A stretch of DNA of 64,000 nucleotides, taken from Methylophaga sp. OBS3. GTDB lineage: Bacteria > Pseudomonadota > Gammaproteobacteria > Nitrosococcales > Methylophagaceae. The position numbers were made by a program, and so were the translations under genes. The stretch is from assembly GCF_026319325.1 (NCBI RefSeq), contig NZ_JAPDMU010000001.1:496001-560000 (forward strand), written 5' to 3'. Shown piece by piece: positions 9,455-48,994 of the stretch. The notes beneath the pieces were generated by a model that was not told the DNA's origin, did no database searches, and saw only the letters and a list, made by a program, of their open reading frames with translations. How positions within the stretch are numbered: position 1 is the stretch's first letter; each line of letters opens with the position of its first letter.

Positions 9455-9512
9455 TGATTTTCTGGGAAGATCGGGTTAATAAAAATAATCGTGATACATG
9501 GGAGTAAATAGC

Positions 9513-10616
9513 GTGGACATGACCCCTTACCTCAAATTGATGGCAGAAAAACAAGCGTCGGATATGTTTTTCTGTACCGGCACGGAGCCACAAATAAAAA
9601 TCCAAAAAGTGATTCGTCCAGTCGGTAACAAAAAGCTTGGACCTGGCGAAGTGAAAGACATGGCCTATTCACTGATGAATAGTGAACAGGCTGAAGAGTT
9701 TGAAGAAACACTTGAGATGAACTTTGCCGTGCCCTTATCGGGTGTGGGTCGTTTCCGGGTAAACATCTTCCGTCAGCGTGGTGAAGTGTCGATGGTTATT
9801 CGCTTTATCCGCACCCATATTCCAAACTTTGATGAAATGAACCTACCTGATGTTTTGGGTAGCGTCATTATGGAACACCGTGGCTTAATCTTGGTTGTTG
9901 GTGCCACAGGTAGTGGTAAGTCAACAACGCTGGCTGCCATGATTGGTCATCGCAACCGTAATTCCAGTTCTCATATTTTGACCATCGAAGATCCATTGGA
10001 GTTTGTGCACACTCACGATCGTTCAATCGTGCAACAACGTGAAGTCGGTATTGATACGTTGTCTTACGAAAATGCATTGAAAAATGCATTACGTGAAGCG
10101 CCTGATGTCATTTTGATTGGTGAGATCCGTGATATGGACACCATGAAACATGCAATTCAGTATTCTGAAACGGGTCACCTATGCTTAGCAACATTACATG
10201 CCAATAATGCTAACCAAGCATTAGATCGCATTTTGAATTTCTTCCCTGAAGTGATGCACCGTCAATTACTGATGGATCTGTCGCTAAATTTGCGCGCCGT
10301 CGTATCACAACGTTTATTACCTACTAAAGATACGGGAACACTAGTCCCAGCAGTAGAGGTAATGATGTCATCGCCATTTATCAGCGAGCTGATTAGCAAA
10401 GGTGATATTGGTGGCATCAAAGCGGCAATGAAAGAGAGTAGTGAGCCTGGTACGATAACCTTTGATCAGGCTTTGTTGAAACTTTATAGTGACGGCAAAA
10501 TTACCGAAGAAGAGGCATTACGAAACGCCGATTCACGTAATGATTTGAGTTTAGAAATCCGGTTGAATAGCAGTCATGATGATGATGGAAACGAGAGTGA
10601 GTTAATTCTCAGCTAA
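9513..10616 (+). CDS. pilU: PilU-type type IV pilus retraction ATPase
   Basis: About 367 residues. It is a PilT/PilU-family hexameric ATPase with Walker A GATGSGKST, the Asp-box IEDPLEF, Walker B VILIGEIRD and the His-box ATLHANNA. The extended acidic C-terminus and the N-terminal MTPYLKLM favour PilU over PilT. GTG 9513 is preferred over ATG 9498 because GGGAG at 9500-9504 lies 8 bases before it and the N-terminus then matches PilU proteins; ATG 9519 is also possible. PilU normally lies next to pilT, but here it is alone between dnaE and accA. It may serve a pilus encoded elsewhere or the machine at 35.9-47 kb. Confidence 0.88.
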   Translation: MDMTPYLKLMAEKQASDMFFCTGTEPQIKIQKVIRPVGNKKLGPGEVKDMAYSLMNSEQAEEFEETLEMNFAVPLSGVGRFRVNIFRQRGEVSMVIRFIRTHIPNFDEMNLPDVLGSVIMEHRGLILVVGATGSGKSTTLAAMIGHRNRNSSSHILTIEDPLEFVHTHDRSIVQQREVGIDTLSYENALKNALREAPDVILIGEIRDMDTMKHAIQYSETGHLCLATLHANNANQALDRILNFFPEVMHRQLLMDLSLNLRAVVSQRLLPTKDTGTLVPAVEVMMSSPFISELISKGDIGGIKAAMKESSEPGTITFDQALLKLYSDGKITEEEALRNADSRNDLSLEIRLNSSHDDDGNESELILS

Positions 10617-33492: not shown

Positions 33493-35253
33493 ATGTCAAT
33501 TCAATCAGCGGATCGCTCTGAACTTTCAGTTATACAAAAATTAACTACCGTATTTCTTGGAGCAATGGTTTTTGTACCATTTTTGGTTTGGCATCATAGA
33601 CAGCCGTTATCTACGTTTTACCCCGAAGTGATAACAATTGCGTTTGGCAGTCTTGCATTGGTGTGGTTTCTTTCGTCTAAAAGTTGGCAAGCTTTAAAGC
33701 TTCCCCTAAGTGTATTACTCCCAGTCGTATTAATTTTAATTTTACTAACGCAGTTTAGTGTTGGTATGCATACCTATTGGCAAGACTACTTCTTAACGGG
33801 TGCTGTTTTGTTATGGGCTGCTTTCATGATGATATTAGGCAGAAATATCAATCAAACTATTGTGATACCAGCTCTAAGTTGGGCCATATTTATTGGTGGT
33901 TTGCTCACCACCTTTTTAATGCTTATACAGCTTAATGAATGGGTTAGCGTCAGTTGGATTTCACCTCATGTGCGTGGTGGTTATGCAGCGAACATTGGTC
34001 AAGTTAATCATGCAGCAACTTATCTAGCGATGGCGGTAGGCTCTCTAATCTTCTTGTTACAAACTGACCGCATAAAACTCCCTGTTTATCTAATTTCGAT
34101 AATTATCTTGTTAATAGGACTGGTTCTGACAGGGCAAAGAATGGCATTACTGTATGTGATCACGTTTGCTTTGTTTGGACCGTTGTTATTACGCCATCTA
34201 ACAAACAAACCATATAGTAATTGGTGGATATTTTTGATCCTGCCAGTATTTTTAATACTCAATTACCTCATTCCAAATATCCTTTCTGAGGTAAATAGTT
34301 CGCCGATACAACGTGTCGTAAATGCTGCGACTGGAGAGTCCACACGCATACTATTATTGCAACAAGCATGGCAAATGTTTACTGCAAACCCTCTGTTAGG
34401 CGTTGGTAGTGGTGGTTTTGGCTGGCACAACTTTCAACTGACAGAACAATATCCGGGGCTAACCGGATATGCCGATAACGCTCACAATATTATTTTTCAG
34501 TTATTAGCTGAATATGGTGTCTTTGCTGGTATTGCTTTGCTCTTACTTGCTGGGTTTTGGATTGTGGGCCAATTCAAAGTCAAACTCACAGCTGAAGGGG
34601 GCTGGATTTTATTTACGCTCGCTGTTTTAACACTACACAGCCTGCTTGAGTATCCTCTCTGGTATAGCTATTTCCTGGGTATTGCCGCTTTAGTTATTGG
34701 TATGGGGGATAACCGAAGTTATCAACTTCCCACAATAAAGTTGGGCAGACCACTGGCGGCGGGTGTTTTGGTTTTTTCGATATTTATCATTGGTGGTGTC
34801 ATTAAGCAGTATCACGAGTTAGAAGGGTGGTATACCGATCGTAGAAACGGTGAAATGACAAATGAAGAAGCCATTGATTTTCTTTATATGTTGGCAGAAA
34901 GACGAGATAGCTCACTTTTTGCCCCATTCTTTGACGTCATTATTGTCCGTGCATTACCTAATAACGAGGATGTTGCCCAAGATAAGCTCGCGATGAACAC
35001 AAAATTCATGCATTTTTTGCCTGGTGAAATTGAGGTTTATGCCCAAGTCGACTTGCTGGTAAAAACAGATCAACACAATGCTGCAAGTGAACAGTTAGGA
35101 AAGGCAATAAGACAATTCCCTGAATTGATGGACTGGTATTGGAAACATATGACGCGTGCATTATTAGTTGATCGTGATACACGCTACTTTCCGCTAATCC
35201 AGCAACTGCAAGTCTATCAAGATGAATATTTGGGTATTAAGGACTATCAATAG
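33493..35253 (+). CDS. PglL/Wzy-family membrane O-oligosaccharyltransferase or ligase
   Basis: 586 residues with about ten or more transmembrane segments, then a soluble C-terminal region from about 440. The NIGQVNHAATYL stretch on the first long periplasmic loop and LTLHSLLEYPLWYSYFLG near the end of the membrane part correspond to signatures of Wzy_C-type, PglL-like O-oligosaccharyltransferases. These transfer lipid-linked glycans to pilins or other proteins, while related WaaL proteins ligate O-antigen to lipid A. The gene lies just upstream of a prepilin operon, which favours a pilin-glycosylating role. The substrate glycan is unknown and no glycan-synthesis genes are nearby. Confidence 0.8.
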   Translation: MSIQSADRSELSVIQKLTTVFLGAMVFVPFLVWHHRQPLSTFYPEVITIAFGSLALVWFLSSKSWQALKLPLSVLLPVVLILILLTQFSVGMHTYWQDYFLTGAVLLWAAFMMILGRNINQTIVIPALSWAIFIGGLLTTFLMLIQLNEWVSVSWISPHVRGGYAANIGQVNHAATYLAMAVGSLIFLLQTDRIKLPVYLISIIILLIGLVLTGQRMALLYVITFALFGPLLLRHLTNKPYSNWWIFLILPVFLILNYLIPNILSEVNSSPIQRVVNAATGESTRILLLQQAWQMFTANPLLGVGSGGFGWHNFQLTEQYPGLTGYADNAHNIIFQLLAEYGVFAGIALLLLAGFWIVGQFKVKLTAEGGWILFTLAVLTLHSLLEYPLWYSYFLGIAALVIGMGDNRSYQLPTIKLGRPLAAGVLVFSIFIIGGVIKQYHELEGWYTDRRNGEMTNEEAIDFLYMLAERRDSSLFAPFFDVIIVRALPNNEDVAQDKLAMNTKFMHFLPGEIEVYAQVDLLVKTDQHNAASEQLGKAIRQFPELMDWYWKHMTRALLVDRDTRYFPLIQQLQVYQDEYLGIKDYQ

Positions 35254-35268
35254 CGATATTTGGCAAAT

Positions 35269-35476
35269 AAGTCATGGATGACTTCAAATAGGTATTTCTT
35301 TTCTTTATCGGGAATAAATTCCCATTTTCTCTATTGTTTTCGCTTATTTAGAAAACACATCTAAAAAATCTCCTTAGTTTTAATCCCCGCAATATATTTG
35401 GCTTTAGTTAGGAATAATTCCTGTTTTGTGATTTGGGACACATTTTGGGAATTCTTCCTATAGGGAAAGTTTTCCC
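35269..35476 (+). promoter_or_regulatory. Array of palindromes upstream of the pilin operon
   Basis: Four sites of form GGAA-N3/4-TTCC: GGGAATAAATTCCC (35310-35323), AGGAATAATTCCT (35410-35422), GGGAATTCTTCCT (35447-35459) and GGGAAAGTTTTCCC (35463-35476). A further perfect repeat, AAGTCAT-GG-ATGACTT, lies at 35269-35284. Centres of the last three sites are about 37 and 17 bases apart. The array fills the 270-base gap between the transferase gene and the small frame at 35524. I see no clear sigma-70 or sigma-54 promoter. Confidence 0.75.
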
Positions 35477-35523
35477 GGTTTGGTTAAATCTGTTTCACCG
35501 AAACCAAGGGAGTTATCTGCAAC

Positions 35524-35718
35524 ATGTCATCAATTAACCAAGCTGAACAACAGCCGATCAAATCCAAGCTGCTGGAACTGGTGGATGATGTCCTTGCACA
35601 TGACGGTTATGGGGATATTCGGGTTGAGGTACGGATCCTCAAACGTCATCAAAAAGAAGTCATTTTGCATTGTGGTAAGCAGTACCGGTATGTCATTGAT
35701 ACGCCACAAACGGCGTAA
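35524..35718 (+). CDS. Small hypothetical protein
   Basis: 64 residues (MSSINQAEQQPIKSKLLELV...). It is a soluble, alternating helix/strand-like sequence with one cysteine. The second half (DIRVEVRILKRHQKEVILHCGKQYRYVI) looks like a beta hairpin or meander. GGGAG at 35508-35512 lies 11 bases before the ATG, a little far but plausible. It is the first frame after the palindrome array and precedes the main prepilin gene by 165 bases. No family recognised. It could be a regulator or accessory of the pilus-like system, or not a gene. Confidence 0.5.
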   Translation: MSSINQAEQQPIKSKLLELVDDVLAHDGYGDIRVEVRILKRHQKEVILHCGKQYRYVIDTPQTA

Positions 35719-35883
35719 TTCATCGATGCCATCGCTGCGTAAAAAGCACTGATTACCGCACAACAAAAAACTGTGATGACGAATTGAGTGTGTTGGGGAC
35801 ACATCAAATTTAATAAAACCTAAATAAACGAGTGACCAACAAGCTGTTTGGGGCGGCTGCGGCATCAACCAGAGAGAAATAAT

Positions 35884-36987
35884 ATGAACATCCAACAAAT
35901 AAAATCGGCGATTGCCAAATTCCGTAAAGCGGATATGTCGATGATTAAAGATGAAAAACTTCGCGCTAAAGGTCAAAAACTGCAAGCAAAAGAAAAAGGT
36001 TTCACCTTACTTGAGCTTTTAGTTGTTATTACCTTATTAGCGATTCTGGCGACTGGTGCATTGGTTGCTTATGACGGCACTGGCGACAAAGCTCAATCAG
36101 CTAAAGCTGCTCATACTGTTGCTGTTATGGATCAAGGGGTTCGTGCGTTTAAAGCAGTGACGCAGGCCTACCCAGATCAGTGGGATAACCTTGCTGATCC
36201 TGTTGATGCAGATACTCCTGCCGGCGGAACGGATTATATACCTGAGGGATTACAAAATATTTTAGGTAGTTTCAATCTTGCAACTGCAATGAGCGACACT
36301 CTGAATTATGACCTTGAAGAATATTTTGATGACGCTTTTGGTATGGAAGAGATTCAACATGTCTTTGGTGGTGCTGATGGGTTAAATGGGGTTGCACCAA
36401 ACCGTGCCCATAATGAAGGATCTAACCCTCCAACAACAACAGGTGGTGCGGTTGAAACCGAATATGGTGATTTTGCTGCAACGGGCATTCAAGGAACAAA
36501 TACAGTTGAGGGTGTTCCAGCATATATTTCCATTTTGGCTTCTCAAGCTGAAGCAAGAGATGGGGCGGCAATGGATTGTTCTGTTGGTGATGTAGCAAAT
36601 AGCATTAATACAACATGGGCTGGAACAACAGCTGATCCTTTAGTCATCAACTCTATTAATGATGCGTTAAGCACACAGCGTTGTAATTTGGTTCTTGCAT
36701 TAGGGTTTGGTGGTGACGCTGCACAAAACACGGTTGACTCAGCGGCTGGCGTTGTTCAGTCACCAACATACAGTAGTGTAAATGTTAACCCTGCAGAAAA
36801 TTATGCCCGATACGTTGGCTTATTCCTTCTTGCACGTGGCGAAAAGGCTGACAACGCAACTGGTTTTGGTAATGGTACCAGTGTTTTAGTACGAGATAAT
36901 TTCCTGCCACGTCCACGACTGCTGGGCTTCATTGACACCGAAGGTAACACTATCGATGCCAATATCGCGGCAGCAACTCAGAACTAA
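35884..36987 (+). CDS. Large prepilin with unusually long leader (putative major pilin)
   Basis: 367 residues from ATG 35884, with an AGAGAG site 5-10 bases upstream. The type III signal is KG-FTLLELLVVITLLAILATGALVAY: cleavage after G39, F at +1 and E at +5. The charged 39-residue leader is longer than in type IVa (under 10) and longer than most type IVb prepilins. The mature protein is about 328 residues, twice a typical pilin, and contains cysteine-bearing loops (MDCSVGD, QRCNLVL). A hairpin follows the gene, so it is probably expressed above the rest of the operon. The name major pilin is inference. Confidence 0.85.
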   Translation: MNIQQIKSAIAKFRKADMSMIKDEKLRAKGQKLQAKEKGFTLLELLVVITLLAILATGALVAYDGTGDKAQSAKAAHTVAVMDQGVRAFKAVTQAYPDQWDNLADPVDADTPAGGTDYIPEGLQNILGSFNLATAMSDTLNYDLEEYFDDAFGMEEIQHVFGGADGLNGVAPNRAHNEGSNPPTTTGGAVETEYGDFAATGIQGTNTVEGVPAYISILASQAEARDGAAMDCSVGDVANSINTTWAGTTADPLVINSINDALSTQRCNLVLALGFGGDAAQNTVDSAAGVVQSPTYSSVNVNPAENYARYVGLFLLARGEKADNATGFGNGTSVLVRDNFLPRPRLLGFIDTEGNTIDANIAAATQN

Positions 36988-37022
36988 TTTACAAACTTTG
37001 TAGATTTAAACTGAAAAATGAG

Positions 37023-37048
37023 GGGCGGGTTATGCCCGCCCTTTATTT
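37023..37048 (+). terminator. Attenuator-like hairpin after first prepilin gene
   Basis: GGGCGGG-TTATG-CCCGCCC, a 7-bp GC-rich stem with 5-base loop (37023-37041), is followed by TTTATTT. It is an intrinsic terminator, probably partial. It would allow high expression of the first prepilin and lower expression of the remaining operon. Confidence 0.85.
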
Positions 37049-37166
37049 CTTAAGAGCTTGTTGTGCTAAGTGCTCCCCATTTATCAGAACCAGTTTTTAA
37101 CCATTGATCGCGACAAAACACAGGACGTGATTGGCAACATCAATATACGCAGACGGGAACAAGTAA

Positions 37167-38021
37167 ATGCGGTTTTTATTGTTTATCCGGTATCGTGAAA
37201 CGAATCATCTGGCTTGCCAACGTTCGTCGGGCTTTACCTTAATCGAGTTATTACTCGTCATCAGTTTATTAGCTGTATTGGCTATCGCGGCCATTAATGC
37301 TTTTGATGGTAATGAAGAACAAGCGCGTTACAACATCACTCGTCTAGAAATGGTGGAATTGCAAAAAGCGTTACTGCAATTTCGTCGTGATACAGGTGAG
37401 TTTCCTTGTAGAAGTTTCCGAACCGGTGTGTATTCACTTAATACGATTATTGATCCGGATGATGGCCCCGCTAAATATTATCTCGCTTACCAAGATCAGC
37501 CTAATTTGCCTGAAAACCCTGATACGGTTAATGGCAGCGACTGGGAAAAATGGTGCCAGGAAGCATTTAGGAATTCTGCTGGCCGTGATATCGCCAGTAA
37601 TGCGCTTTATATGCTGAATGATTTCCCCTATTTTGCTGCTGACTTCCCAAACTTGTTATGGAATCGTGATACACAAAAAGGCTGGAATGGCTCCTATATA
37701 AGTCTGGAAGGCTTAACTGATGGCTGGGGGAACCCTTACTTATTGCTCGATCCTGAACTTGATTACAGTCAACACTTTGCTTGCCTAAATAATAGTGGCG
37801 CCTATGCGGTCATTGACGATGATTTATATGATTGCCAATCACTTACCAATGAATCTGTTCCTGCCAATTACAATCTACCCGCTAATGTTGTACGCATTGT
37901 CAGTACCGGTCCTAATGGTGATCCAGACAGTCTACGTGGTGACTATTCAGATCTTGCTAATGATGATCTTTGTGCGCCAGCCGAGGGCAGCGATGATTTA
38001 GTGCTGTGTTTATTGCGGTGA
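37167..38021 (+). CDS. Prepilin-like protein, GspG-like
   Basis: 284 residues. Prepilin cleavage is after G22 (SSG-FTLIELLLVISLLAVLAIAAI), E at +5. The globular part contains GWNGSYISLEGLTDGWGNPYLL, similar to the GP.Y....DPWG.PY element of type II secretion major pseudopilins, and several cysteines (about six in the mature part). It starts the run of closely packed genes that continues to 46985, separated from the previous prepilin by a hairpin. It may be a minor pilin or tip component. Confidence 0.82.
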   Translation: MRFLLFIRYRETNHLACQRSSGFTLIELLLVISLLAVLAIAAINAFDGNEEQARYNITRLEMVELQKALLQFRRDTGEFPCRSFRTGVYSLNTIIDPDDGPAKYYLAYQDQPNLPENPDTVNGSDWEKWCQEAFRNSAGRDIASNALYMLNDFPYFAADFPNLLWNRDTQKGWNGSYISLEGLTDGWGNPYLLLDPELDYSQHFACLNNSGAYAVIDDDLYDCQSLTNESVPANYNLPANVVRIVSTGPNGDPDSLRGDYSDLANDDLCAPAEGSDDLVLCLLR

Positions 38022-38024
38022 TTA

Positions 38025-39047
38025 GTGATGCCTGAAACACGCCCAAGCCACTCAAAAAAATGCTTGATGCAGCAAGGTTTTACCTTATTGGAACTTGTAC
38101 TGGTTTTGTTTCTCATCGGGTTATTGGCCTCAGCTGGGCTTTTATTTACTGAAAATTTAGAAAGTCAGGCGAAATACGAAGAAACGCAAAAACGTATTGA
38201 ATTAATTCGGCGCGCCATCGTTGGAGATCTGACCCGAACTGTGAACGGTGGTCCCGAACTCAGTGGCTTTGTGGCCGATGTGGGGCGGTTGCCACTGTGT
38301 ATTAAAGAGTTGATTGAACTAGGAGATCCTGATGATGATCCAGATCAGTTTAAGTCACCTTGTGCCTCGGATGATGCATTTAATTTAAGAGTTTGGCAGA
38401 TAGATTCAGATACAGGTGTTGGTGCTGGCTGGCGTGGGCCCTATATTTCATTAAATGCAGACAAAGATGGTGTGAAACGTTTCCGTGATGGTTATGGTAA
38501 TGGCGAAGATGCGGATATTAATTTTGGCTGGAACTGGCAATTAGCCACTGGCATAAGTGAAGTTGACACCATCGGCCTGACGCCGCCGTTAAGTGCTGTT
38601 CAAGCGACAAATATCCATTTGAAAAGCGATGGCTTTGATATTGATGCAGGTAATGATGAAGTGCCTATTGATGGCAGTGATTTTCTTACAGGGAACGATT
38701 GGTTATATCCAAGTGGTGAAACCAATCAGTCAGAAATTGATTTGAGATTCGCCATTACGGAAGCGTTGTCAGCTGAAATTACTGTAAAAACTTTCCTTGA
38801 AAGAACTCTGGTTAACCCCGCCTTTTTAGCGGAGTCCTTATCTAATTCACCGGATACTGATATTACATTTCCAGTTTCGAGCGTTGGTGTTGGTATACCC
38901 AGGAAAGTTATTTTTGATAGAAATTTACCAATGGGCCGTTATTTATTTCGATTAGATTGCCCTGTTTCATGTGTACCTGACAGCTATGTAATTACCATCT
39001 TACCCCGTCAAACCATCGCTCCGCTTGAGTTTCGGATAATCCCATGA
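38025..39047 (+). CDS. Prepilin-like protein
   Basis: 340 residues from GTG 38025 (or ATG 38028, three bases later). The signal is QQG-FTLLELVLVLFLIGLLASAGLLF with cleavage after G18 and E at +5. The globular part has GWRGPYISLNADKDGVKRFRDGYGN, related to the pseudopilin motif of the preceding gene, and two pairs of cysteines. The spacing to the previous gene is 3 bases and the next gene overlaps by 4. It is probably a minor pilin; it does not match a named GspH-K family by eye. Confidence 0.82.
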   Translation: MMPETRPSHSKKCLMQQGFTLLELVLVLFLIGLLASAGLLFTENLESQAKYEETQKRIELIRRAIVGDLTRTVNGGPELSGFVADVGRLPLCIKELIELGDPDDDPDQFKSPCASDDAFNLRVWQIDSDTGVGAGWRGPYISLNADKDGVKRFRDGYGNGEDADINFGWNWQLATGISEVDTIGLTPPLSAVQATNIHLKSDGFDIDAGNDEVPIDGSDFLTGNDWLYPSGETNQSEIDLRFAITEALSAEITVKTFLERTLVNPAFLAESLSNSPDTDITFPVSSVGVGIPRKVIFDRNLPMGRYLFRLDCPVSCVPDSYVITILPRQTIAPLEFRIIP

Positions 39048-40810
39048 ATATCATCGAATTAGTCAAAACGCGTTTATCTGCGATTAGAAATAAACAACTT
39101 ATGGTTTGTGAGTGGGACACACATCGTATATCTGGGACTGTCTTTAATCGTAAAGGAAAAACCATTGGGGTTGTTGCTAGTGCAGAGTCAGACCTGATTG
39201 ATCCAAGTGATGCATTTGCCGATGTCGTTCACAACTTAAGACAAAATGGTTGGGAAGGGCGACAAGTTGTTGTGTTGACACCGTCAGCAATGAGCACGGT
39301 TGTTGAACTACCTGTTAGTCCTAAAAAACCAAAACCTATTCCACAAATGCATGAGCTTGTTCGGTGGGAGGTTGAGCCATTATTAATGCAACACCAGTCT
39401 CAGTGGACGTTAGGCCAATTAATGGAAGCCAGAGGTTTACTGACATCTGAACAAGTAAGTGAAATACAAAACGCACAAAAAAAAGCAGCCCAAGCAATTG
39501 GTGGTGTGAGACCTGATCGTAATTCTTTGAAACGGTTTGGCGATTTGGCTTTTGATATGGGCTATGTAACTCAAGAGCAAGTCCAATCATTATTTGTACT
39601 ACAGGAATGGTTGCGTGGCGAAGAAGATGTTGTCCAGTGTGGCTGGTCTGCACAAGGCGAAGTCGATGATGCGCCGGGTGTTTGGAATTGGTTGGTAACA
39701 GCGACTTATGCCTCATCAATTCAACGTTGGGAGTCCTTATTAGCATCCCATCATTTATCACTTATCGGTCTGATGCCTTTGACGGGCAATAGTGTTGGCC
39801 TGATGAGAAATAATGATAAAGCTAGCTTATTAATTGATGTAACGGCGCCAATTACAAGCGTTACTAAAATTAATAAGCAACACAAAGTTGAGTCAGTTAG
39901 GTACTTCATTAACCGAAGTGCTTCGATGCTAGAAGCTTGTCTTGAGGTTTATCACGCTGAAAACACGCATCAGCATCCAGCTATTAATCTAGCTGCATCT
40001 GCAAGTCAATCAAGTGAGCTTGCAACAACATTCTCAGCCGCGATTGGTCATGATGTGAATTTAGTGCCAGATCAGAATATTGAGCAAATTTCTCCCGGTG
40101 CATTAGCTGCTGCACATCATGTTTTTAAATTAAAACACGGTGGACGAGTTTCTCTCATTCGTCCAAATGGTCCACTCCCACCTACATGGCACCGTCAAGA
40201 AGTGCAATTTGCCAGTGTTTTGGCAGGATTTTTATTAATCGTGTTCGTGGCCGAAACAGTCATGTTCATCGACCATCGGCAGGTTTCTATACAAAAAGCG
40301 GAGATAGATGCTCGGGCGAAAGTTCTCGATGAAGCAATTGCACGTATAAAAGCACAACGTGCGGCTATTGATGTACGAAAAGCAAAGTTAGCTGCAACGC
40401 AAGAAAGTCAGACACGTATGGAAGCACGCTTACGCTTTTTTGGTGAGCAATTACCCGATAGGAGATTGATTGTTCAGGCTATTTTGGGCGTTTTGCAAAA
40501 TACGGTTAATGAACAAATTATCGTTAATCGTATTGATGAAATGGGGCGTCGAGTTGGCATTCAACCTGCAGCGCCACAGCCAAACAGACCGGGGATGGTT
40601 GAGCTTGATAATTTTAATGTTGATGCTTGGGCTGTCACGGAAAGTGCTGCTCAAGAGTTTGTACAAAACATGAAGTTAGCCGTAGCGCAGTGGAGTATGG
40701 ATGTTCGCGATATTCAGGTCATGGAAAAAATTGGCCCGATGAATATGGCTGGGTTTTCAGTTTCTATGAGCCTTATCCATGTTTCCGCTAAACCTAAGGA
40801 AGCGCTATGA
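39044..40810 (+). CDS. PilM-PilN (GspL-like) fusion with inserted MshEN-like repeats
   Basis: 588 residues. N-terminal part about 18-375 resembles the actin-like PilM/GspL cytoplasmic domain (LMVCEWDTHRISGTVF at the start). A transmembrane segment (about 389-407), a coiled coil (about 410-460) and a ferredoxin-like periplasmic part of PilN type follow. Residues about 121-150 and 163-190 form two repeats of pattern LGQLM..RGLLTSEQV...Q and FGDLA.DMGYVTQEQV..L, characteristic of the MshEN/GspE-N domain and normally found in the ATPase. It probably forms the inner-membrane platform that couples the ATPase to the pilus base. It overlaps genes on both sides by 4 bases. Confidence 0.8.
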   Translation: MNIIELVKTRLSAIRNKQLMVCEWDTHRISGTVFNRKGKTIGVVASAESDLIDPSDAFADVVHNLRQNGWEGRQVVVLTPSAMSTVVELPVSPKKPKPIPQMHELVRWEVEPLLMQHQSQWTLGQLMEARGLLTSEQVSEIQNAQKKAAQAIGGVRPDRNSLKRFGDLAFDMGYVTQEQVQSLFVLQEWLRGEEDVVQCGWSAQGEVDDAPGVWNWLVTATYASSIQRWESLLASHHLSLIGLMPLTGNSVGLMRNNDKASLLIDVTAPITSVTKINKQHKVESVRYFINRSASMLEACLEVYHAENTHQHPAINLAASASQSSELATTFSAAIGHDVNLVPDQNIEQISPGALAAAHHVFKLKHGGRVSLIRPNGPLPPTWHRQEVQFASVLAGFLLIVFVAETVMFIDHRQVSIQKAEIDARAKVLDEAIARIKAQRAAIDVRKAKLAATQESQTRMEARLRFFGEQLPDRRLIVQAILGVLQNTVNEQIIVNRIDEMGRRVGIQPAAPQPNRPGMVELDNFNVDAWAVTESAAQEFVQNMKLAVAQWSMDVRDIQVMEKIGPMNMAGFSVSMSLIHVSAKPKEAL

Positions 40811-41478
40811 CTATCAAACAGCTGAATCAGCGTGAAAAAATCTTGGCCATTGTGATTCTAATTGTCTTGTTAATCGGTGGTTATGTGTCTTTACGATTTG
40901 AGCCAAGGCTCACCGAAATAGAAAAACTTAATAATCAAAAAGATGCCACGCTGACACGAATTTCTAAACTCGAAATTCCTGAGGAGCCCAGAGAAAGTAT
41001 CGCCGAAATTAATGCCGAACTAGATGACTTGGAAAAGGCATTAATCGCTATCAAAGAAAATGCTAAACAAATTGAAGAGCAGTTGGCGCCAATTGATTCA
41101 CAAGAGTTGAGGGTTCGTATATCTGAGTTAGCGCGTGACAGTGGTATTCGTATTCGTGTCAATCAAGTCTTTAAAGCTGAACCAATCAGTATTGTTGAGA
41201 AAAATGGCCGACCGAAAGAGCCCGTAACTAAGCAAGAACTTATTCCGCCTTATGAATTTAGTTGGATTAACAAATTAGCACCTAATTCAATGTTTCATCG
41301 CCCAATGCAACGCCTCGAAATTGATGCTGATTATCCGTCTTTAAGACGCTTTATCCATGGACTAGATAACCTCCCATATCAGGTTACGGTCGTTCGGATG
41401 AATATTGAAAAGCTTGAGGTGGCGCCATTACGGGGCATGTCACAACTTCTTAAATCTGAACTTGTGCTGGCGCTTTGA
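40807..41478 (+). CDS. PilO/GspM-like inner-membrane platform protein
   Basis: 223 residues. One N-terminal membrane segment (about 10-29) is followed by a coiled coil (about 35-95) and a ferredoxin-like periplasmic domain (LEIDADYPSLRRFIHGLDNLPYQVTVVRMNI). This is the PilO layout, and PilO pairs with PilN, which is encoded just upstream as part of the fusion. It overlaps that gene by 4 bases; the ATPase gene follows after 11 bases. Confidence 0.8.
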   Translation: MTIKQLNQREKILAIVILIVLLIGGYVSLRFEPRLTEIEKLNNQKDATLTRISKLEIPEEPRESIAEINAELDDLEKALIAIKENAKQIEEQLAPIDSQELRVRISELARDSGIRIRVNQVFKAEPISIVEKNGRPKEPVTKQELIPPYEFSWINKLAPNSMFHRPMQRLEIDADYPSLRRFIHGLDNLPYQVTVVRMNIEKLEVAPLRGMSQLLKSELVLAL

Positions 41479-41489
41479 GTTAATTCGCT

Positions 41490-43133
41490 ATGGCAGTAAC
41501 TGACGAACAACTCATCAAAGCTGGTTTGGATACCGGTCTATTAGAACAAAGCACAATTGATGCTTTACGTGCTGTTTCACGCCGTCAGCGACAACCAATA
41601 CTGGCTAGCGTGTTGGCAAAATACCGTATTCCATTATCTGCTTTATATAGAGCTGTAGCTGAACAGGCTGGATTGGTGTTTATGGATGTCACTCAGGGGC
41701 AAGTTAATGTACCTCTGAGTAAAAAAATGCCGGCCAGTTTGATTAATCGTAAACAACAACTTGTTCTGACACAGGCAAATGAAGATTACTTAGTTATCAC
41801 TGATCCATTCGACCGCGCAGGGCTAGATGCTGCTGAGCGACTCATTGGTCAACATGTAAAAGTGGTAATGAGTGATCCGGAATCATTACGGCTGCTTATC
41901 AAAAAATACTTGTCAAATACGGCAGTAGCTCAAGTGACAGATGCCAACAGTCCTGATACAGACTTGATTAGCCTCTTGGACAATATTTTTCGAGATGCCT
42001 ATTTAAATCGCAGCTCTGATATTCATATGCAAACAGAAGAGGATGGATTAAGAGTACGTTTACGCGTTGATGGTCGTTTGGTGGATTACCCTATTGAAGC
42101 AGATCAATCTGCAGCCGCCGGTTTAATTTCACGCGTTAAGGTACTGGCAGGATTAGATATTGCTGAACAGCGTATGCCACAGGATGGTGGCTTTTCGTAT
42201 TATCTAGCACCACCTGTGGACTTGGAATTCAATATACGTGTGGCGACAGCGCCAACTCGATTAGGTGAGCGGATCACCATGCGATTGCTAGGTCAGGAAA
42301 GCGTGGCGTTAACACTCACAGATCTCGGTTTTCTGGATAGTGATTTGCAGGAGTTTCGTAAGGCAATTCACCAGCCTTACGGGATGATTTTGCTTACGGG
42401 GCCAACGGGAAGTGGTAAATCGACAACCTTATTTGCTGCATTACAAGAAATTAATGCCCCCGACATTAATATCATGACGGTTGAAAACCCCATTGAGTAT
42501 GTCATTGATGGTGTTTCACAAATCCAAACCGGCCCCAAAATTACTTTTGCTGATGCATTGAGATCATTGCTTCGACACGATCCTGACGTGTTGATGGTTG
42601 GTGAGATCCGTGATACCGAAACTGCTGATGTTGCTGTAAAAGCGGCAATGACTGGCCATATGGTTTTTTCAACATTACACACCAATAATGCGATTAGTGC
42701 TGTCACACGTTTGGTCGATATTGGTTGTGAACCGTTCTTGATTGGTTCAACCATGACCGCTGTTATTGGCCAACGTTTAGTGCGTCGTTTGTGTCAGAAC
42801 TGTGCAAAGCCTCGTCAAGCGACTAAACACGAGTTAGCGTTATTAGGACAAGCCGATGATGTTGAAGTGTTTGATGCAATCGGCTGTGCGGTTTGTCAGG
42901 GTAAAGGTTTTAGCGGTCGCCTAGGTTTATTTGAAACCTTATGGTTTGACGAAAAGTTAGCGCGGCTAGTTGCTAAAGGTGCTGATGAAGAAACATTAGA
43001 GAATCAAGCAGGTAATAAGCTTAAGTTTATGTGGCAAGACGGGTGCGAGAAAGTCTTGCGAGGACTAACAACCCTGGAAGAAGTACAAAACGTTGCCCCC
43101 GTAAAATCCTTAGCAGTGATAGAGGCCAACTAA
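41490..43133 (+). CDS. PilB/GspE-type assembly ATPase
   Basis: 547 residues. An N-terminal MshEN-like domain (1-145) precedes the ATPase core with Walker A GPTGSGKST (304-312), the Asp-box VENPIEY, Walker B DVLMVGEIRD and the His-box STLHTNNA. A zinc-type tetracysteine CQNC...CAVC lies near the C-terminus, as in GspE and PilB. It powers pilus or pseudopilus extension. It is followed one base later by the platform gene. Confidence 0.93.
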   Translation: MAVTDEQLIKAGLDTGLLEQSTIDALRAVSRRQRQPILASVLAKYRIPLSALYRAVAEQAGLVFMDVTQGQVNVPLSKKMPASLINRKQQLVLTQANEDYLVITDPFDRAGLDAAERLIGQHVKVVMSDPESLRLLIKKYLSNTAVAQVTDANSPDTDLISLLDNIFRDAYLNRSSDIHMQTEEDGLRVRLRVDGRLVDYPIEADQSAAAGLISRVKVLAGLDIAEQRMPQDGGFSYYLAPPVDLEFNIRVATAPTRLGERITMRLLGQESVALTLTDLGFLDSDLQEFRKAIHQPYGMILLTGPTGSGKSTTLFAALQEINAPDINIMTVENPIEYVIDGVSQIQTGPKITFADALRSLLRHDPDVLMVGEIRDTETADVAVKAAMTGHMVFSTLHTNNAISAVTRLVDIGCEPFLIGSTMTAVIGQRLVRRLCQNCAKPRQATKHELALLGQADDVEVFDAIGCAVCQGKGFSGRLGLFETLWFDEKLARLVAKGADEETLENQAGNKLKFMWQDGCEKVLRGLTTLEEVQNVAPVKSLAVIEAN

Positions 43134-43134
43134 G

Positions 43135-44352
43135 ATGCCTTTATTTGCCTATCAAGTGTTAACTGCAACTGGGGATGAGCGCTCGGGTCAATTACAAGCC
43201 GATAACGTTAATCAAGTTGCTCAAAAACTTCGGGATCAAGGGCTTCGTGTACTAAATATCGCTGAACGTCGACAACGCGGATTTCTTGGAGAAGAGAGCT
43301 TTGCTGATTGGTACGCGACACAACGCTCCGTATCTAATGACGCCTTAATATTCTTTTATCGACAAATGGCTTTTATGTTACGTGCGGGTTTGCCATTAGC
43401 CGAATGCTTGGATCTATCCAAAAACCAAATTGAAAACCCACGACTAAATTACGTTGTGCGAAAAATGCATCGTGATATTCAAGCTGGTAAATCACTCTCA
43501 GATGCACTCAGAAAGCACGAAGATATCTTTACCAATATTGCGATTAACCTCGTCGTCGCTGGTGAAAATACCGGTGAGTTAGATGCCATCATGGAGCGTT
43601 TGGCTGTCCACCTTGAGAAAAAATCCCAGCTTCGCAAACAGATGATAAATGCCATGATTTATCCAGTCATTGTTGTGTTGGCTGCGATCGGCGTTGCTAC
43701 TTTTATGGTGGTGGCTATCATTCCGAAATTTGCGGATTTCCTTCAAGGGCAAGGAAAACCTTTGCCCGAGTCTACGCAGACATTAATCGATACTGCTGCA
43801 TTTTTGCGTGAAAACGGCTTAGTCATTATTGGCATCGCTATAGCCACAATTATTCTCATGCTGATTAGTAATCGGACATACAAGGGACGTCGCGTTTTTG
43901 ATCGACTTCTGCTTGAAGTACCGGTATTTGGCAGGATGAACATCTTTGGTTCAATGGCGCAATTTACCTGGGCGATGTCTATTTTGTTGCGAAGTGGTAT
44001 CACGATTTTCGATGCTTTGAAGATCACCTCAGAGTTGATTGTGAATAAAACCTATGCAGACAAAATGCTTAAAGCTTCCGAGAGTGTTTTCGCAGGTAAA
44101 GATCTGTCGGGGAGTGTCGCCCACCCCAAAATGCCACCACTTGTTATTCAAATGATTGCCATTGGCGAGCGAACAGGTTCTTTAGACCAAATTCTCCAAG
44201 AAATGGGTATTTACTACCAAAGCTTATTGGAGATCGCCATTAAAAGGCTTACCGCGATGATTGAACCCGTGATGATTTTGGTCATTGGCGGCATGGTCGG
44301 CTTTGTTTACTACGCCTTTTTTCAGGCCCTATTTGCATTGGCTGGAGGATAA
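43135..44352 (+). CDS. PilC/GspF-type inner-membrane platform protein
   Basis: 405 residues with two GspF domains (about 65-190 and 270-395). Motifs FFYRQMAFMLRAGLPLAECLDL and FTWAMSILLRSGITIFDAL begin each, and membrane segments lie at about 170-190, 220-240 and 375-400. It anchors the ATPase under the assembling pilus. It is the canonical partner of the preceding gene. Confidence 0.94.
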   Translation: MPLFAYQVLTATGDERSGQLQADNVNQVAQKLRDQGLRVLNIAERRQRGFLGEESFADWYATQRSVSNDALIFFYRQMAFMLRAGLPLAECLDLSKNQIENPRLNYVVRKMHRDIQAGKSLSDALRKHEDIFTNIAINLVVAGENTGELDAIMERLAVHLEKKSQLRKQMINAMIYPVIVVLAAIGVATFMVVAIIPKFADFLQGQGKPLPESTQTLIDTAAFLRENGLVIIGIAIATIILMLISNRTYKGRRVFDRLLLEVPVFGRMNIFGSMAQFTWAMSILLRSGITIFDALKITSELIVNKTYADKMLKASESVFAGKDLSGSVAHPKMPPLVIQMIAIGERTGSLDQILQEMGIYYQSLLEIAIKRLTAMIEPVMILVIGGMVGFVYYAFFQALFALAGG

Positions 44353-44355
44353 GCC

Positions 44356-44787
44356 GTGTTTGCCAAAAAGTACTTAATTTTGATGATGATCATCATCACC
44401 TTTCCCACGTTTGCTTATGACCCAATGGGGCTAGGTGAGTCTTCTCAAGTTTCAATTCGAGATCCATTTACCCCTAGCGCGTTGATGTATGAGCAGGCTG
44501 GGACATTATCAAACATTGGCAGTGATGCATTTGGCTTTATGCCTGGGGATGTTCCAGATACAAAAGTCCCAACAATGCGACTAAAAGGCTTAATTAAAGA
44601 AAAAGACACTGGTGAACAAATCGCTTTGCTTGAGGTGACTGGGCGAGGGGTATACATGGTGAGGGAGGGCGATGAAATCAACATCGACCCAAGTAAACCA
44701 GCGAGCGCTATTCGTATCTCAGATATAACGCGCTTAAGCGTCACCATTGAGACCGGCACCTTAGGTCGGATCCGCGTTTTAAGATAG
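44356..44787 (+). CDS. PilP/GspC-like periplasmic linker protein
   Basis: 143 residues from GTG 44356. A signal peptide (about 1-20, ending TFA) without a lipobox is followed by a short linker with the RDPFTPS motif seen in PilP- and MshK-like proteins. A small beta domain follows (MRLKGLIKEKDTGEQIALLEVTGRGVYMVREGDEI), the HR/PilP fold that bridges inner-membrane platform and secretin. The stop overlaps the secretin start codon. PilP proper is usually a lipoprotein, so MshK-like may be the better comparison. Confidence 0.72.
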   Translation: MFAKKYLILMMIIITFPTFAYDPMGLGESSQVSIRDPFTPSALMYEQAGTLSNIGSDAFGFMPGDVPDTKVPTMRLKGLIKEKDTGEQIALLEVTGRGVYMVREGDEINIDPSKPASAIRISDITRLSVTIETGTLGRIRVLR

Positions 44788-46985
44788 TGATAAAAATGAA
44801 TTTAAATAAAAAACTAATCAGTGCATTGATTATTGCCGGACTAAGCGCAAGCTCTCCTCAGCTTTATGCGGAACCATCAAATGCTTTTGCTGAAAACAGT
44901 GCTGTAAATATAGAAAGCACGGATGTTTGGATTTCGGAAGTAGAGTTTAATGATGCGAGTATGTATGACGTCATTCGCACGCTCTCTGAAATGAGTAATA
45001 GCAACATCATTGCAACACCTGCTGCGGCAAATCGAAAAGTAACCATACACCTAAAGAATGTAACGATTTTAAATGCCGTTAAATCAATAAGCCGAATCAG
45101 CGATCTTTGGTATCGCTATGATGAAGACACCAATACGTATCGATTATTAACGCGTGAAGAATATAGTCAGGATCTCATTGTTAGAGAAAGCGAAAATATA
45201 GAGATATTTCGTTTACTGAATGCAAATGTCTTAGTAATTGCCCAAGCAATTGAGGATTTATTTGGTCAACGGGTGCGTTTGTCATATGGCTTACCGCCAG
45301 CTTCAAATGCATCTAATGGCAGTGGTTCTTCTGGCGGTATTGGCTCACGAGGTGGAAATGTCAGAAGTGGTAATTCTTCGGTAAGAAATAGTCGTTCGTT
45401 TAATAGCGGCGGATTCGGTAATAGCCGGGGAAGTAGTCGCGGTGGTATTGGCAATACACTGGAACAGTCGGGTTCAACAATTGATTCTGCAGACCTAACG
45501 GTAGATCAAATTGAGCAAATAGCGCAGTCCTTGGAAATGAGCGGTGAAAGAAATGTCACTCAATCAGCACTCCAGCAAGCGACGATTCAATCTCAGCCTA
45601 TCTTTGTCACCGTCAATAACGAACACAATATGATTATCGTTCGTTCTGATGATAAATCGGTCTTAACGGGTATCCAAAAATTAATTGATCGGATGGATAT
45701 TCCCGTCCCTCAAGTGATGTTAGAAATGCGAATTTTAAATGTAATTCTAGGAGAAGACTTTAACTCAATTTTTAACTTTGAAATTGAACGTAAAGATGAT
45801 GGTGAATTCATTAACTCAAATATTTTGGGTAATAACTCAATTAGTAATGCTGGCACGTTTGTTTATGAGATTCTCAACGGTCGTTTACGCGCCAATATTG
45901 AGTTTTTAGAGGAAAACAACCGAATTCGGGTCTTATCTAACCCAATGGTGGTTGCATCAAATCATCGTCCTGCCGAGTTATTTATTGGTGAAGAAACCTT
46001 GTTAACACAAGGATTTAGTTTCTTTCCTGCTTTGACTGGACCTAATGGCAACATTATTCAACCAGCATACGTGCAAGCTGATGTTTCAAGGGAAGATATT
46101 GGTATTACTCTCAGAATTACACCGAGAATAAATGGTGATGGCACAGTTGAGCTGGATATTGAGCAAGAAAACTCATTGGTAAACCCCGGTGGTGGCACAA
46201 TTCCTGTTGGTGATGGTGATGGAAATGTTCGTAATTTACCTGTCGATACAGTGGATACCGCAAGGCTAACTGGAACGGTTATGGCCATGGACGAATTAAC
46301 TGTGGCAGTTGGTGGTTTGATTCGTACAAGTAAAAATCGTAGTGAACGTAAAGTGCCGCTGTTGGCAGAAATTCCATTATTGGGACGTGTTTTCACATCA
46401 AGTATTGAGTCCGAACAAGATACCGAGACTGTTTTATTGATTACCCCAAGAATTATGAATGTGCCCACTGATAGTGAAAATATTCGTACCAGTGAAAATC
46501 GCTTCTATCGTAATTTCAACCGCGATTTTCCCGAACCGTTACCATTTGATAATCGTTTTATCTATAAAGATACAGCTGCAGAGCAAAGTGACTACATTCC
46601 TGATGCGCAGCAATCAGCAGTATTTCAAGATATGACTAACTATGCCGCGCAAATCGTTAGAACGCCAGATATTCAGCGTCCTGATAGCCATCAATATAAG
46701 GTGTTAGATGTCATCCCTATTGCTGCCGGGTTATTTAACAACCCAGCAATCAAAACGGTGCCAATGAATAGCTGGCAAAAAGGCAATTTATATGTGACGG
46801 CGGTACAATTGTTCAACCGTTCTGACCGCCCGCAAGATATTGATGCATCACAAGTCAATGGTGGTTGGTTAGCCGCGACAATTGAGAATAGTCGTTTAGA
46901 TGCCAATGGTGAGGTGAAATCCGTCTCAATGATGTATTTGGTATCGCAACAACCATTTGAAGACATGTTGCCCTTGTTACATTAA
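44787..46985 (+). CDS. Secretin (PilQ/GspD/MshL-like) with C-terminal extension
   Basis: 732 residues; start GTG 44787 or ATG 44796. A signal peptide ends near A28. An N0-type domain (about 45-125) is followed by a Gly/Ser/Arg/Asn-rich linker (about 172-223), an N1-like domain (about 270-305) and the secretin core with the signature VPLLAEIPLLGRVFTSS (523-539) and TETVLLITPRI (546-556). About 160 residues follow the core. The last part (NLYVTAVQLFNRSDRPQDID, then YLVSQQPFEDML) recalls the C-terminus of integrative-conjugative-element proteins such as the TIGR03749/DUF3438 family. That resemblance is from memory. It forms the outer-membrane pore. Confidence 0.85.
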   Translation: MIKMNLNKKLISALIIAGLSASSPQLYAEPSNAFAENSAVNIESTDVWISEVEFNDASMYDVIRTLSEMSNSNIIATPAAANRKVTIHLKNVTILNAVKSISRISDLWYRYDEDTNTYRLLTREEYSQDLIVRESENIEIFRLLNANVLVIAQAIEDLFGQRVRLSYGLPPASNASNGSGSSGGIGSRGGNVRSGNSSVRNSRSFNSGGFGNSRGSSRGGIGNTLEQSGSTIDSADLTVDQIEQIAQSLEMSGERNVTQSALQQATIQSQPIFVTVNNEHNMIIVRSDDKSVLTGIQKLIDRMDIPVPQVMLEMRILNVILGEDFNSIFNFEIERKDDGEFINSNILGNNSISNAGTFVYEILNGRLRANIEFLEENNRIRVLSNPMVVASNHRPAELFIGEETLLTQGFSFFPALTGPNGNIIQPAYVQADVSREDIGITLRITPRINGDGTVELDIEQENSLVNPGGGTIPVGDGDGNVRNLPVDTVDTARLTGTVMAMDELTVAVGGLIRTSKNRSERKVPLLAEIPLLGRVFTSSIESEQDTETVLLITPRIMNVPTDSENIRTSENRFYRNFNRDFPEPLPFDNRFIYKDTAAEQSDYIPDAQQSAVFQDMTNYAAQIVRTPDIQRPDSHQYKVLDVIPIAAGLFNNPAIKTVPMNSWQKGNLYVTAVQLFNRSDRPQDIDASQVNGGWLAATIENSRLDANGEVKSVSMMYLVSQQPFEDMLPLLH

Positions 46986-47007: not shown

Positions 47008-48351
47008 GTGAGTTTAAGAGGCTTAATTAATGTCAGGATTTTGATCATTGTTTTTTTGATCCTGATGGCCGGTGGTTTGTTAACAATCTGGCAGGCCAGG
47101 CAAGCTGTTGAAAGGGAAGTTAACTCATCTTTTAACTTGGCTTTGCAAATGATTGACTTAGGCTTTAGTCATTTGTCTCGAACGCCACTTTCTGAATATG
47201 AGTGGTTACAGCAAATTAGTGCCATCCAACAAACTCGCCATATTCATATTTCAATTATTAATGATGATGGGGAAGAAGTGGAGTGGTTCGTCAATGATGT
47301 GCCATTTGACGATGAGATCCCACCGCAATGGTTTATTAATATCGTTAGTACCGATTACCCGGAAGCTCGTTATCAAATCAAACTAGCAGACGGCAGAACT
47401 AAAGAAGTCGTGGTGAGAGCTGAACCTATTGATGAAATCGCGGAAGCGTGGGGTGAGTCTCAAGCGTATTTCTGGTCGGTTGTGGCGATGATGGGGGTCA
47501 TTTTTCTCGCTATTAACGTTGTCTTTAACTCGATGTTAAGAACCGTGCACAGCATCGTTGTCGGTTTACGACGTGTGGAGTCTGGTCAATATGGTAAAAA
47601 ACTACCTAATTTTTCCATTCGTGAATTTGATGTTATTGCCAATGAAATTAATAACTTAACGGATGCGCTTAAATCTGCTCGAGATAGTAATCAAGCGTTG
47701 GCTCGTCACACAATGCAAATACAGGAAACTGAGCGGCGAACATTATCTCGCGAGTTACATGATGAGATGGGGCAGTCACTTACCGCCATTAAAGCGATGG
47801 CTGTGACGAATAAAAGTGAAAATGCCGACAATAAACAAATTTCAGATTCAATTATCGAAATTTGTACGCACTTATCAGGTGTTGTTCGTTCAATGATGCG
47901 AACATTACACCCATTGAGTCTTGCCGATCTCGGCCTTGGTGCAACATTGACTGATCTGGTTAATGAATGGCGTCGTCGTTATCCGGAGCTTCAGATCGAG
48001 TTGCAATATGACGAGCGTTTAGATGATGTCTCACATGAGCTGGCAATTCATGTTTATCGAATTGTTCAAGAATCTATTACCAACGTTATTCGACATGCTA
48101 ATGCCAGTAAGGCTTCGATCAAGGTGATGAAAGAGGGCGGTACAACATCACCGCGCGTCGTGATTCGAATTAAAGATAATGGCCAAGGCGGTGAGACTAA
48201 TGTTGGCGGATTTGGCGTTTTAGCGATGCGTGAACGTGTTGAAAATATGGGGGGGCGGTTTCGTTTTGAATCGGCTCCGGATCAGGGCGTAAGTGTCCAG
48301 GCATGGATGCCAATCATAGAGAACAAAGTGAATGAATCAGAACCAGAATAA
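47008..48351 (+). CDS. Sensor histidine kinase, HisKA_3 (NarX/MoxY-like)
   Basis: 447 residues from GTG 47008 with AAGGCGGA at 46993-47000. Membrane segments at about 9-28 and 153-174 enclose an approximately 125-residue periplasmic sensor domain whose start (ARQAVEREVNSSFNLALQMI) resembles the LapD/MoxY N-terminal domain. A HAMP-like linker follows (175-228), then the phosphoacceptor H251 in SRELHDEMGQSL, and the HATPase part with N-box ESITNVIRHA and GQGG...GGFGVLAMRERV. It overlaps its response regulator by 20 bases. The family includes MoxY/MxaY, which control methanol oxidation genes, but the sequence alone does not show its target. Confidence 0.88.
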   Translation: MSLRGLINVRILIIVFLILMAGGLLTIWQARQAVEREVNSSFNLALQMIDLGFSHLSRTPLSEYEWLQQISAIQQTRHIHISIINDDGEEVEWFVNDVPFDDEIPPQWFINIVSTDYPEARYQIKLADGRTKEVVVRAEPIDEIAEAWGESQAYFWSVVAMMGVIFLAINVVFNSMLRTVHSIVVGLRRVESGQYGKKLPNFSIREFDVIANEINNLTDALKSARDSNQALARHTMQIQETERRTLSRELHDEMGQSLTAIKAMAVTNKSENADNKQISDSIIEICTHLSGVVRSMMRTLHPLSLADLGLGATLTDLVNEWRRRYPELQIELQYDERLDDVSHELAIHVYRIVQESITNVIRHANASKASIKVMKEGGTTSPRVVIRIKDNGQGGETNVGGFGVLAMRERVENMGGRFRFESAPDQGVSVQAWMPIIENKVNESEPE

Positions 48352-48994
48352 AATTGATGTACTTTTAGTTGATGACCATGCTGTCGTGCGAGCAGGGTTT
48401 CGTATGCTGCTGTCATCACAACCTTTTATCGGCAACATTGTTGATGTAGATCGCGGTGAACTTGTTTGTCACGAATATGAGCGCAGCCATCCTGATGTGG
48501 TCGTAATGGATCTCTCTATGCCAGGAATAGGTGGTTTAGAGACCATTCGTCGCCTTAAAAGACAAGATCCACAAGCAATCATTTTGGTTTACAGCATCCA
48601 TGATGAGTCTGTATATGTGGAACGTGCAATTCAAGCCGGTGCAAAAGGTTATGTGACCAAAAATAGCGCTGCTGAAGTTTTGGCTGAAGCGGTATCAACA
48701 GTTATGCAGGGACGTCGTTACATTGATCCAGAAATTTTGCCGAGCCTTGATGATTTCAAGCAACCGGCCGATACACTGCATTACGGCCAAGTGATTGAGT
48801 CTTTATCACCACGAGAATTTGATGTCTTTTGTCGTACTGCACGTGGTATGACTGCTCACGAAGTCGCCGCAGAATTACACCTTGGTTACAAGACGGTAGC
48901 CAATTACAACACCACCATTAAGAATAAATTGAATGTAAATACCACAGCAGATCTTGCCAATATTGCTGTGGTGCTAGGCATTATCAAACCCTAA
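48332..48994 (+). CDS. Response regulator, NarL/FixJ type
   Basis: 220 residues. A receiver domain (about 8-125) has the acidic pair LLVDDH and phosphoacceptor D60 in VVVMDLSMPG, with the conserved K in GYVTKNS. The C-terminal LuxR-type HTH (about 155-215) contains LSPREFDVFCRTARGMTAHEVAAELHLGYKTVANY. It is the partner of the preceding kinase. A bidirectional terminator follows. It may regulate the pilus operon or methanol oxidation genes. Confidence 0.92.
   Translation: MNQNQNKIDVLLVDDHAVVRAGFRMLLSSQPFIGNIVDVDRGELVCHEYERSHPDVVVMDLSMPGIGGLETIRRLKRQDPQAIILVYSIHDESVYVERAIQAGAKGYVTKNSAAEVLAEAVSTVMQGRRYIDPEILPSLDDFKQPADTLHYGQVIESLSPREFDVFCRTARGMTAHEVAAELHLGYKTVANYNTTIKNKLNVNTTADLANIAVVLGIIKP

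Follow-up and report, generated by a model that had tools for sequence, protein, structure and literature searches.

A stretch of 64,000 nucleotides from the 2.3 Mb genome of Methylophaga sp. OBS3 (in the following termed the window, positions counted from its first letter) revealed a block of genes for a machine resembling type IV pili and type II secretion systems (T2SS). It encodes three prepilins (X1 to X3), a fused PilM-PilN protein (MN), a PilO-like protein (O), an assembly ATPase (B), a platform protein (C), a PilP-like protein (P), and a secretin (Q). Based on sequence comparisons, the family of such blocks is in all likelihood a separate lineage among type IV filaments. As an explanation of the whole, we favor, with some reserve, a glycosylated, adhesive pilus of this distinct lineage similar to the mannose-sensitive hemagglutinin (MSHA) pilus.

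Relationship to named filament types

Using NCBIfam equivalog profiles with curated cut-offs for parts of the T2SS, the type IVa pilus (T4aP), and MSHA, we found that every one remained under its cut-off, GspG included. For B, the profiles GspE and PilB reached 470 and 459 bits (cut-offs of 630 and 676, respectively), for C, GspF reached 316 bits (cut-off of 424), and for Q, scores of 138, 109, and 101 bits were obtained with GspD, PilQ, and MshL (cut-offs of 351, 284, and 250, respectively). None of the three large prepilins of the cluster exceeded an equivalog cut-off, and the T2SS minor pseudopilins GspH, GspI, GspJ, and GspK were not found in it.

Phylogenetic trees of B, C, and Q were calculated with FastTree and midpoint-rooted, taking T2SS, T4aP, and MSHA proteins as the only reference sets. 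The family formed its own clade in the tree of B (support of 1.0) and its own group, with a weaker support of 0.74, in the tree of C. The secretins of the family fell into one group set apart from T2SS, T4aP, and MSHA, with MSHA as the nearest reference group; the node uniting MSHA and the family had a support of 1.0, but the node of the family only 0.3. The genome's own Tad secretin was located far from Q in this tree. Thus, both profiles and trees supported the original prediction, made from the sequence of the window alone, that the machine is of a distinct type.

Further features by which named types are recognized were also compared. Tad systems possess a CpaF-type ATPase and an RcpA-type secretin, whereas B is of the GspE/PilB type. 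T4aP display a PilM with a separate PilN, while M and N are fused in MN, which on its own argues only weakly against T4aP, since fused forms occur in type IV pili (T4P) of Campylobacterota according to the part of PMC11870540 considered here. The N-terminal cyclic di-GMP (c-di-GMP) motif of MshE was, searched for in its relaxed form, detected in none of the N-termini of the family B proteins. The co-occurrence of an assembly ATPase, a membrane platform, and a major pilin in the cluster, as judged by matches to Pfam T2SSE, T2SSF, and N_methyl, corresponds to a "generic" type IV filament as defined in PMC6668835.

Instead of a separate lineage, the locus could represent an aberrant or decaying form of T4aP or MSHA, in agreement with the T4aP and MSHA homologs found for each main machine part. 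We consider this quite unlikely, since the open reading frames (ORFs) are intact, their order is conserved across phyla, the family stands apart from the references in three trees, and a T4aP set is present elsewhere in the same genome. In the literature on pili of Methylophaga and Methylomonas with secretins, DUF3438, and fused PilM-PilN, of which a part was covered, no description of the system was found.

Gene content, order, and distribution of the block

The cluster had been described as nine consecutive machine genes at 35254–46985. All nine ORFs were present at 35884–46985, including the N_methyl motif in each of the three prepilins, one ORF each with T2SSE plus MshEN, T2SSF, and Secretin domains (Pfam), and the PilO-like protein, whose family hidden Markov model (HMM) matches MshJ as well as the genome's own PilO. 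From 37167 onwards, the genes are as tightly packed as described, with intergenic gaps of 3, -4, -4, 11, 1, 3, and -1 bases. The start of the stretch had to be corrected, as 35254 lies one base past the end of a gene for a PglL-type glycan ligase and X1 begins at 35884. This dedicated ligase gene and a small conserved gene, sm, had been missed, though both are members of the same block as the nine machine genes (Table 1). The sm product matched no Pfam family, and 15 of its residues are invariant in an alignment of homologs across genera. Likewise, no Pfam match was obtained for P, the position of which is conserved in nearly all loci.

Table 1. Genes and other features of the block and their positions in the window
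Feature	Position	Strand	Evidence
PglL/Wzy_C-type glycan ligase, putative O-oligosaccharyltransferase for X1	33493–35253	+	Wzy_C 5e-19, Wzy_C_2 6e-23 (Pfam)
sm, conserved small protein, 64 residues	35524–35718	+	homologs immediately 5' of X1 across genera
X1, prepilin, probable major pilin	35884–36987	+	N_methyl 1e-8; 39-residue leader followed by G^FTLLE
Terminator-like GC-rich hairpin with U-rich tail, X1-X2 interval	37023–37052	+	sequence scan; fold -26.6 kcal/mol, z -4.55
X2, prepilin, GspG-like	37167–38021	+	T2SSG 1e-7, N_methyl 6e-7; under GspG cut-off
X3, prepilin	38025–39047	+	N_methyl 3.5e-5
MN, PilM-like actin fold, membrane helix/coiled coil, and PilN-like C-terminus	39044–40810	+	AlphaFold, Foldseek, VIA, HMM
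MshEN-like four-helix insert in MN (residues about 119–191), candidate c-di-GMP site	39398–39616	+	hhalign, AlphaFold model, conserved motif residues
O, PilO-like	40807–41478	+	family HMM matching MshJ and the genome's own PilO
B, PilB/GspE-like assembly ATPase	41490–43133	+	T2SSE 2.5e-119; T2SSE and MshEN Pfam domains
C, PilC/GspF-like platform	43135–44352	+	T2SSF 9e-56
P, PilP-like (putative)	44356–44787	+	position, size, apparent signal sequence
Q, secretin with C-terminal DUF3438/TIGR03749 domain (residues about 600–727)	44787–46985	+	Secretin 1e-33, DUF3438 4e-11, TIGR03749 1e-14

In agreement with the original prediction, neither a prepilin peptidase nor PilT or GspH–K was present in the cluster. 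PilD and the Tad peptidase were the only prepilin peptidases found in the genome, which elsewhere harbors a Tad cluster and a T4aP set that includes PilT and PilU. The lack of a retraction ATPase held for the cluster of the window but not as a defining trait of the family, because in a sister branch O and B are separated by a PilT-like gene. This gene is confined to one of two ATPase branches and absent from that of the window, and several of its members show the PilT-type motif AVxxLIRE. A third PilT/PilU-like ATPase gene of the genome is located at 9498–10616 of the window. It precedes the cluster by about 25 kb, is remote from the pilT-pilU pair, and was rejected as a lost PilT of the system, since it groups with the genome's PilU in the tree.

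When 84,980 species genomes were scanned for the secretin, 42 loci were obtained, which is an undercount, as the scan relies on short peptide patterns. These loci were found in Methylophaga, Neptuniibacter, Methylomonas, Methylotenera, Nitrospina, Lentisphaera, and others, and also in metagenome-assembled genomes (labelled Colwellia and Moritella; Chromatiaceae, Ectothiorhodospiraceae). In an even sample of the class comprising 369 genomes, the cluster occurred in three outside the genus Methylophaga. The family is widespread but sparse, being scattered among aquatic bacteria. Most weak matches of a phylum-wide search with MN did not extend over the whole protein but were confined to its MshEN-like or PilN-like part, and no plasmid copies of the cluster were found with MN.

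More than 30 loci kept the order sm-X1-X2-X3-MN-O-(PilT-like)-B-C-P-Q, which recurs in Methylophaga, Neptuniibacter, Colwellia, Methylomonas, Methylotenera, and Nitrospina; since these loci belong to several phyla, the nine-gene arrangement is not due to chance. The order is, as had been noted, unusual, being unlike both gspCDEFGHIJKLMO of E. coli and MSHA. In Methylomonas, Q is located upstream and PglL between X1 and X2. Two Methylophaga loci (L030 and L031) are natural chimeras, combining at the same genomic site a Neptuniibacter-like motor (B and C) including the PilT-like gene with a Methylophaga-like secretin, so that motor and secretin can be exchanged. In several PilT-containing relatives, the X2-X3 interval harbors a gene for an apparently exported protein of 160–175 residues belonging to no known Pfam family (L048:12390–12917, L072:1162–1665, L095:1301–1792).

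Within Methylophaga, the block was conserved in eight genomes beyond that of the window and occurred as a variant in two more, and PglL is adjacent to the cluster in relatives. The block is inverted relative to the flanking genes in some strains, including one of the eight syntenic genomes. In five genomes without the block, sufT is directly followed by the same histidine kinase-response regulator (HK-RR) pair that otherwise flanks it, so that the block is conserved as a unit at one site between sufT and this pair, either whole or absent. The HK-RR pair itself (47008–48994), consisting of a sensor with a LapD_MoxY_N domain and a regulator of the LuxR type, is a fixed suf neighbor in Methylophaga with or without the block; it was rejected as a part of the system, as the genomes lacking the block keep it right after sufT.

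The DUF3438/TIGR03749 domain at the C-terminus of Q belongs to a family named for proteins of integrating conjugative elements, and DUF3438 was detected in 16 of the 34 family secretins. Many loci, though not that of the window, carry a gene for a Pom-family outer-membrane barrel just 3' of Q, e.g., L022:3268–4398, L026:2030–3148, L050:18072–19142, and L063:11982–13214, with short N-terminal repeats of the LxMHVF/LRVHIY type.

MN insert, pilin X1, and glycan ligase

The AlphaFold model of MN (predicted local distance difference test, pLDDT, of 84.8; 27 sequences) displayed an actin-like domain and a long helix, and its end is of the alpha-beta type. PilM of P. aeruginosa (5eou) was the top match in Foldseek (E of 2e-11). 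VIA aligned 265 residues with PilM 2ych at a Z of 17.5, which FtsA equalled, and gave EpsL a Z of 13. The family HMM of MN matched the genome's own PilN with the C-terminal half of the model (425–540). Together, predicted structure and C-terminal match confirmed the proposed PilM-PilN fusion, the PilM part of which is, in its modelled fold, nearer to PilM than to EpsL.

Four helices at about residues 119–191 of the model form an insert that aligned motif-to-motif with the N-termini of MshE (hhalign E of 9e-9), while other segments of MN, serving as internal controls, gave values of 0.1–0.7. In an MshEN domain, the four-helix bundle contains two motifs of 24 residues each. Motif II of the insert in the window, RFGDLAFDMGYVTQEQVQSLFVLQ, fits the relaxed consensus published in PMC5013675; motif I has kept the glycines and hydrophobic residues but not the first residue and gave no match to the relaxed motif. 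According to PMC11731258, the arginine at the first position of motif I is dispensable, though K or L stood in its place. We give the predicted binding of c-di-GMP by the MN insert an even chance. A search with the insert also led to a protein of 278 residues opening with several MshEN-like repeats (L052:8816–9652), possibly a stand-alone c-di-GMP receptor.

For X1, modelled with a pLDDT of 78, a long N-terminal helix (42–93) was predicted. Its head did not match any structure with E < 1 in Foldseek, and only a single chain, TCP pilin, was retrieved by VIA (Z of 2.4). Codon usage of X1 is the most biased among the full-length genes of the cluster (effective number of codons of 42.8 compared to a window mean of 47.3), and this bias and the X1-X2 hairpin both fit, as weak hints, a role as major pilin. 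The leader (35884–36000), unusually long with 39 residues, is conserved in Methylophaga, Colwellia, and Neptuniibacter but short in Methylomonas and Methylotenera.

Co-inheritance of X1 and PglL was analyzed in eight strains (the window and L022–L028) using IQ-TREE topology tests (approximately unbiased p-values, pAU). The trees of both genes were alike in separating L022, L024, and L025 from the window, L023, and L026–L028 with 100% bootstrap support. While the X1 data accepted the PglL tree (pAU of 0.22) and rejected the trees of MN, O, B, C, and Q, the machine-gene data rejected the PglL tree. The data of sm, the gene between PglL and X1, strongly rejected the X1 tree and weakly the PglL tree (pAU of 0.037); since both were rejected, simple linkage is less likely as the cause. 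Identities of X1 and PglL were correlated (0.63, permutation p of 0.016). Judged by these trees, X1 and PglL were co-inherited against the rest of the machine. PglL genes are often located beside pilin genes and are then candidates for modifying that pilin, a pairing tested for ComP (PMC3643930). We regard it as probable that X1 is the substrate of PglL.

A DNA-uptake (competence) pilus would be in line with the pilin ComP of Acinetobacter, which is modified by PglL and encoded next to the gene of this ligase (PMC3643930), and the PilT-like gene of the sister branch would permit retraction. However, DNA uptake is usually served by T4aP, of which the genome possesses a set with PilT/PilU, the block lacks com genes, and the branch of the window has no PilT-like gene, which makes this function highly improbable.

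Proposed function and comparison with known systems

The original prediction had left open whether the machine is a pilus, an uptake machine, or a secretion system; our analysis narrows this towards a surface pilus, which we regard as probable. Alternatively, a T2SS-like machine could push one or few exoproteins through Q by short pseudopili of X1 to X3. X2 matches T2SSG, GspE is the top equivalog for B and GspF near the top for C, and the single locus encodes a bitopic M-N protein of GspL-like layout. Secretion nevertheless appears unlikely, and the pilus is preferred, because GspH, I, J, and K are absent, the fold of MN is nearer to PilM than to EpsL, Q is placed with MSHA and not T2SS in the secretin tree, a PilT-like gene is found in the sister branch, and the glycan ligase travels with X1.

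As a surface pilus, the block would encode a self-contained machine belonging to the type IV filament superfamily, with X1 as major pilin and X2 and X3 as minor or tip pilins. X1 would be the most strongly transcribed gene, since the terminator-like hairpin parts it from the genes downstream. Prepilins would be processed by PilD, a housekeeping enzyme with its gene elsewhere in the genome, PglL would transfer a glycan onto X1, and B would power extension through C, with MN, O, and P as an alignment complex across the periplasm and Q as the outer-membrane gate, so that a filament serving in adhesion could emerge outside the cell. The sensor of c-di-GMP, or of another ligand, may be the MshEN-like bundle inserted into PilM within MN and not the ATPase as in MshE; hence the platform rather than the motor would gate piliation. 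As the branch of the window lacks its own PilT-like gene, the pilus would either be non-retracting or borrow the housekeeping PilT/PilU. Tentatively, the family might be regarded as an unnamed filament type beside T4aP, MSHA, and T2SS, with c-di-GMP gating via the PilM-PilN platform instead of the ATPase, a glycosyltransferase dedicated to its pilin, and the TIGR03749/DUF3438 domain, shared with proteins of conjugative elements, in the secretin of many members.

Several points weigh against the glycosylated, adhesive pilus. The first MshEN motif has no R, K, or L at position 1, and the NCBIfam c-di-GMP motif reached 22 of 38 bits, so that c-di-GMP binding by the insert may be lost. The PglL_A motif of PglL scored 21.3 bits compared to a Pfam cut-off of 25. 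Co-inheritance of X1 and PglL could partly reflect physical linkage, in view of the narrow rejection of the PglL tree by sm, and X3 data accepted the PglL tree, too (pAU of 0.18). Moreover, X2 resembles GspG, as would suit a short T2SS-like filament, and the literature searched contained no experiments on any member of the family.

A coherent lineage of fixed gene order provides a definition and a test bed for one group among the 884 type IV filament systems left "generic" in PMC6668835, with Methylophaga thiooxydans, Neptuniibacter, and Methylomonas sp. LW13 as cultured strains. If the PilM insert binds c-di-GMP, piliation would be controlled at a different place. X1-PglL pairs moving between machine backbones would represent naturally matched ligase-pilin sets for studies of specificity, and the all-or-none presence at one site permits comparisons within a genus.

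Among known systems, PglL-ComP of Acinetobacter (PMC3643930) likewise has a glycan ligase gene beside its pilin gene but belongs to another pilin and machine, the pairing in our family being deduced from co-inheritance. The PilM-PilN fusion has already been described for T4P of Campylobacterota, where, in the part of PMC11870540 considered, the order is pilMNOPQ and an MshEN insert is not mentioned. With T2SS, the family shares GspE/F/G-like parts, the single locus, and a bitopic M-N protein laid out like GspL, but it lacks GspH–K, stands apart in the trees, and differs in gene order. T4aP (pilMNOPQ, pilBCD, pilTU) offer homologs of PilM (by fold), PilN, PilO, PilB, PilC, and the secretin; here, however, M and N are fused, the pilins lie inside the operon, the PilB and PilQ scores remain under their cut-offs, PilT is missing in the branch of the window, and the genome encodes a separate T4aP set. 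The MSHA pilus (Vibrio cholerae type) is a single-locus machine without its own peptidase. The family resembles it in both respects as well as in its secretin, the nearest in the tree, its PilO-like protein matching MshJ, and its MshEN-like domain. It differs from MSHA in forming its own clade in the ATPase tree and a separate group in the secretin tree, in a secretin score under the MshL cut-off, in its gene order, in the lack of mshM and mshN homologs in the block, and in carrying its MshEN-like bundle in the PilM part and not in the ATPase.

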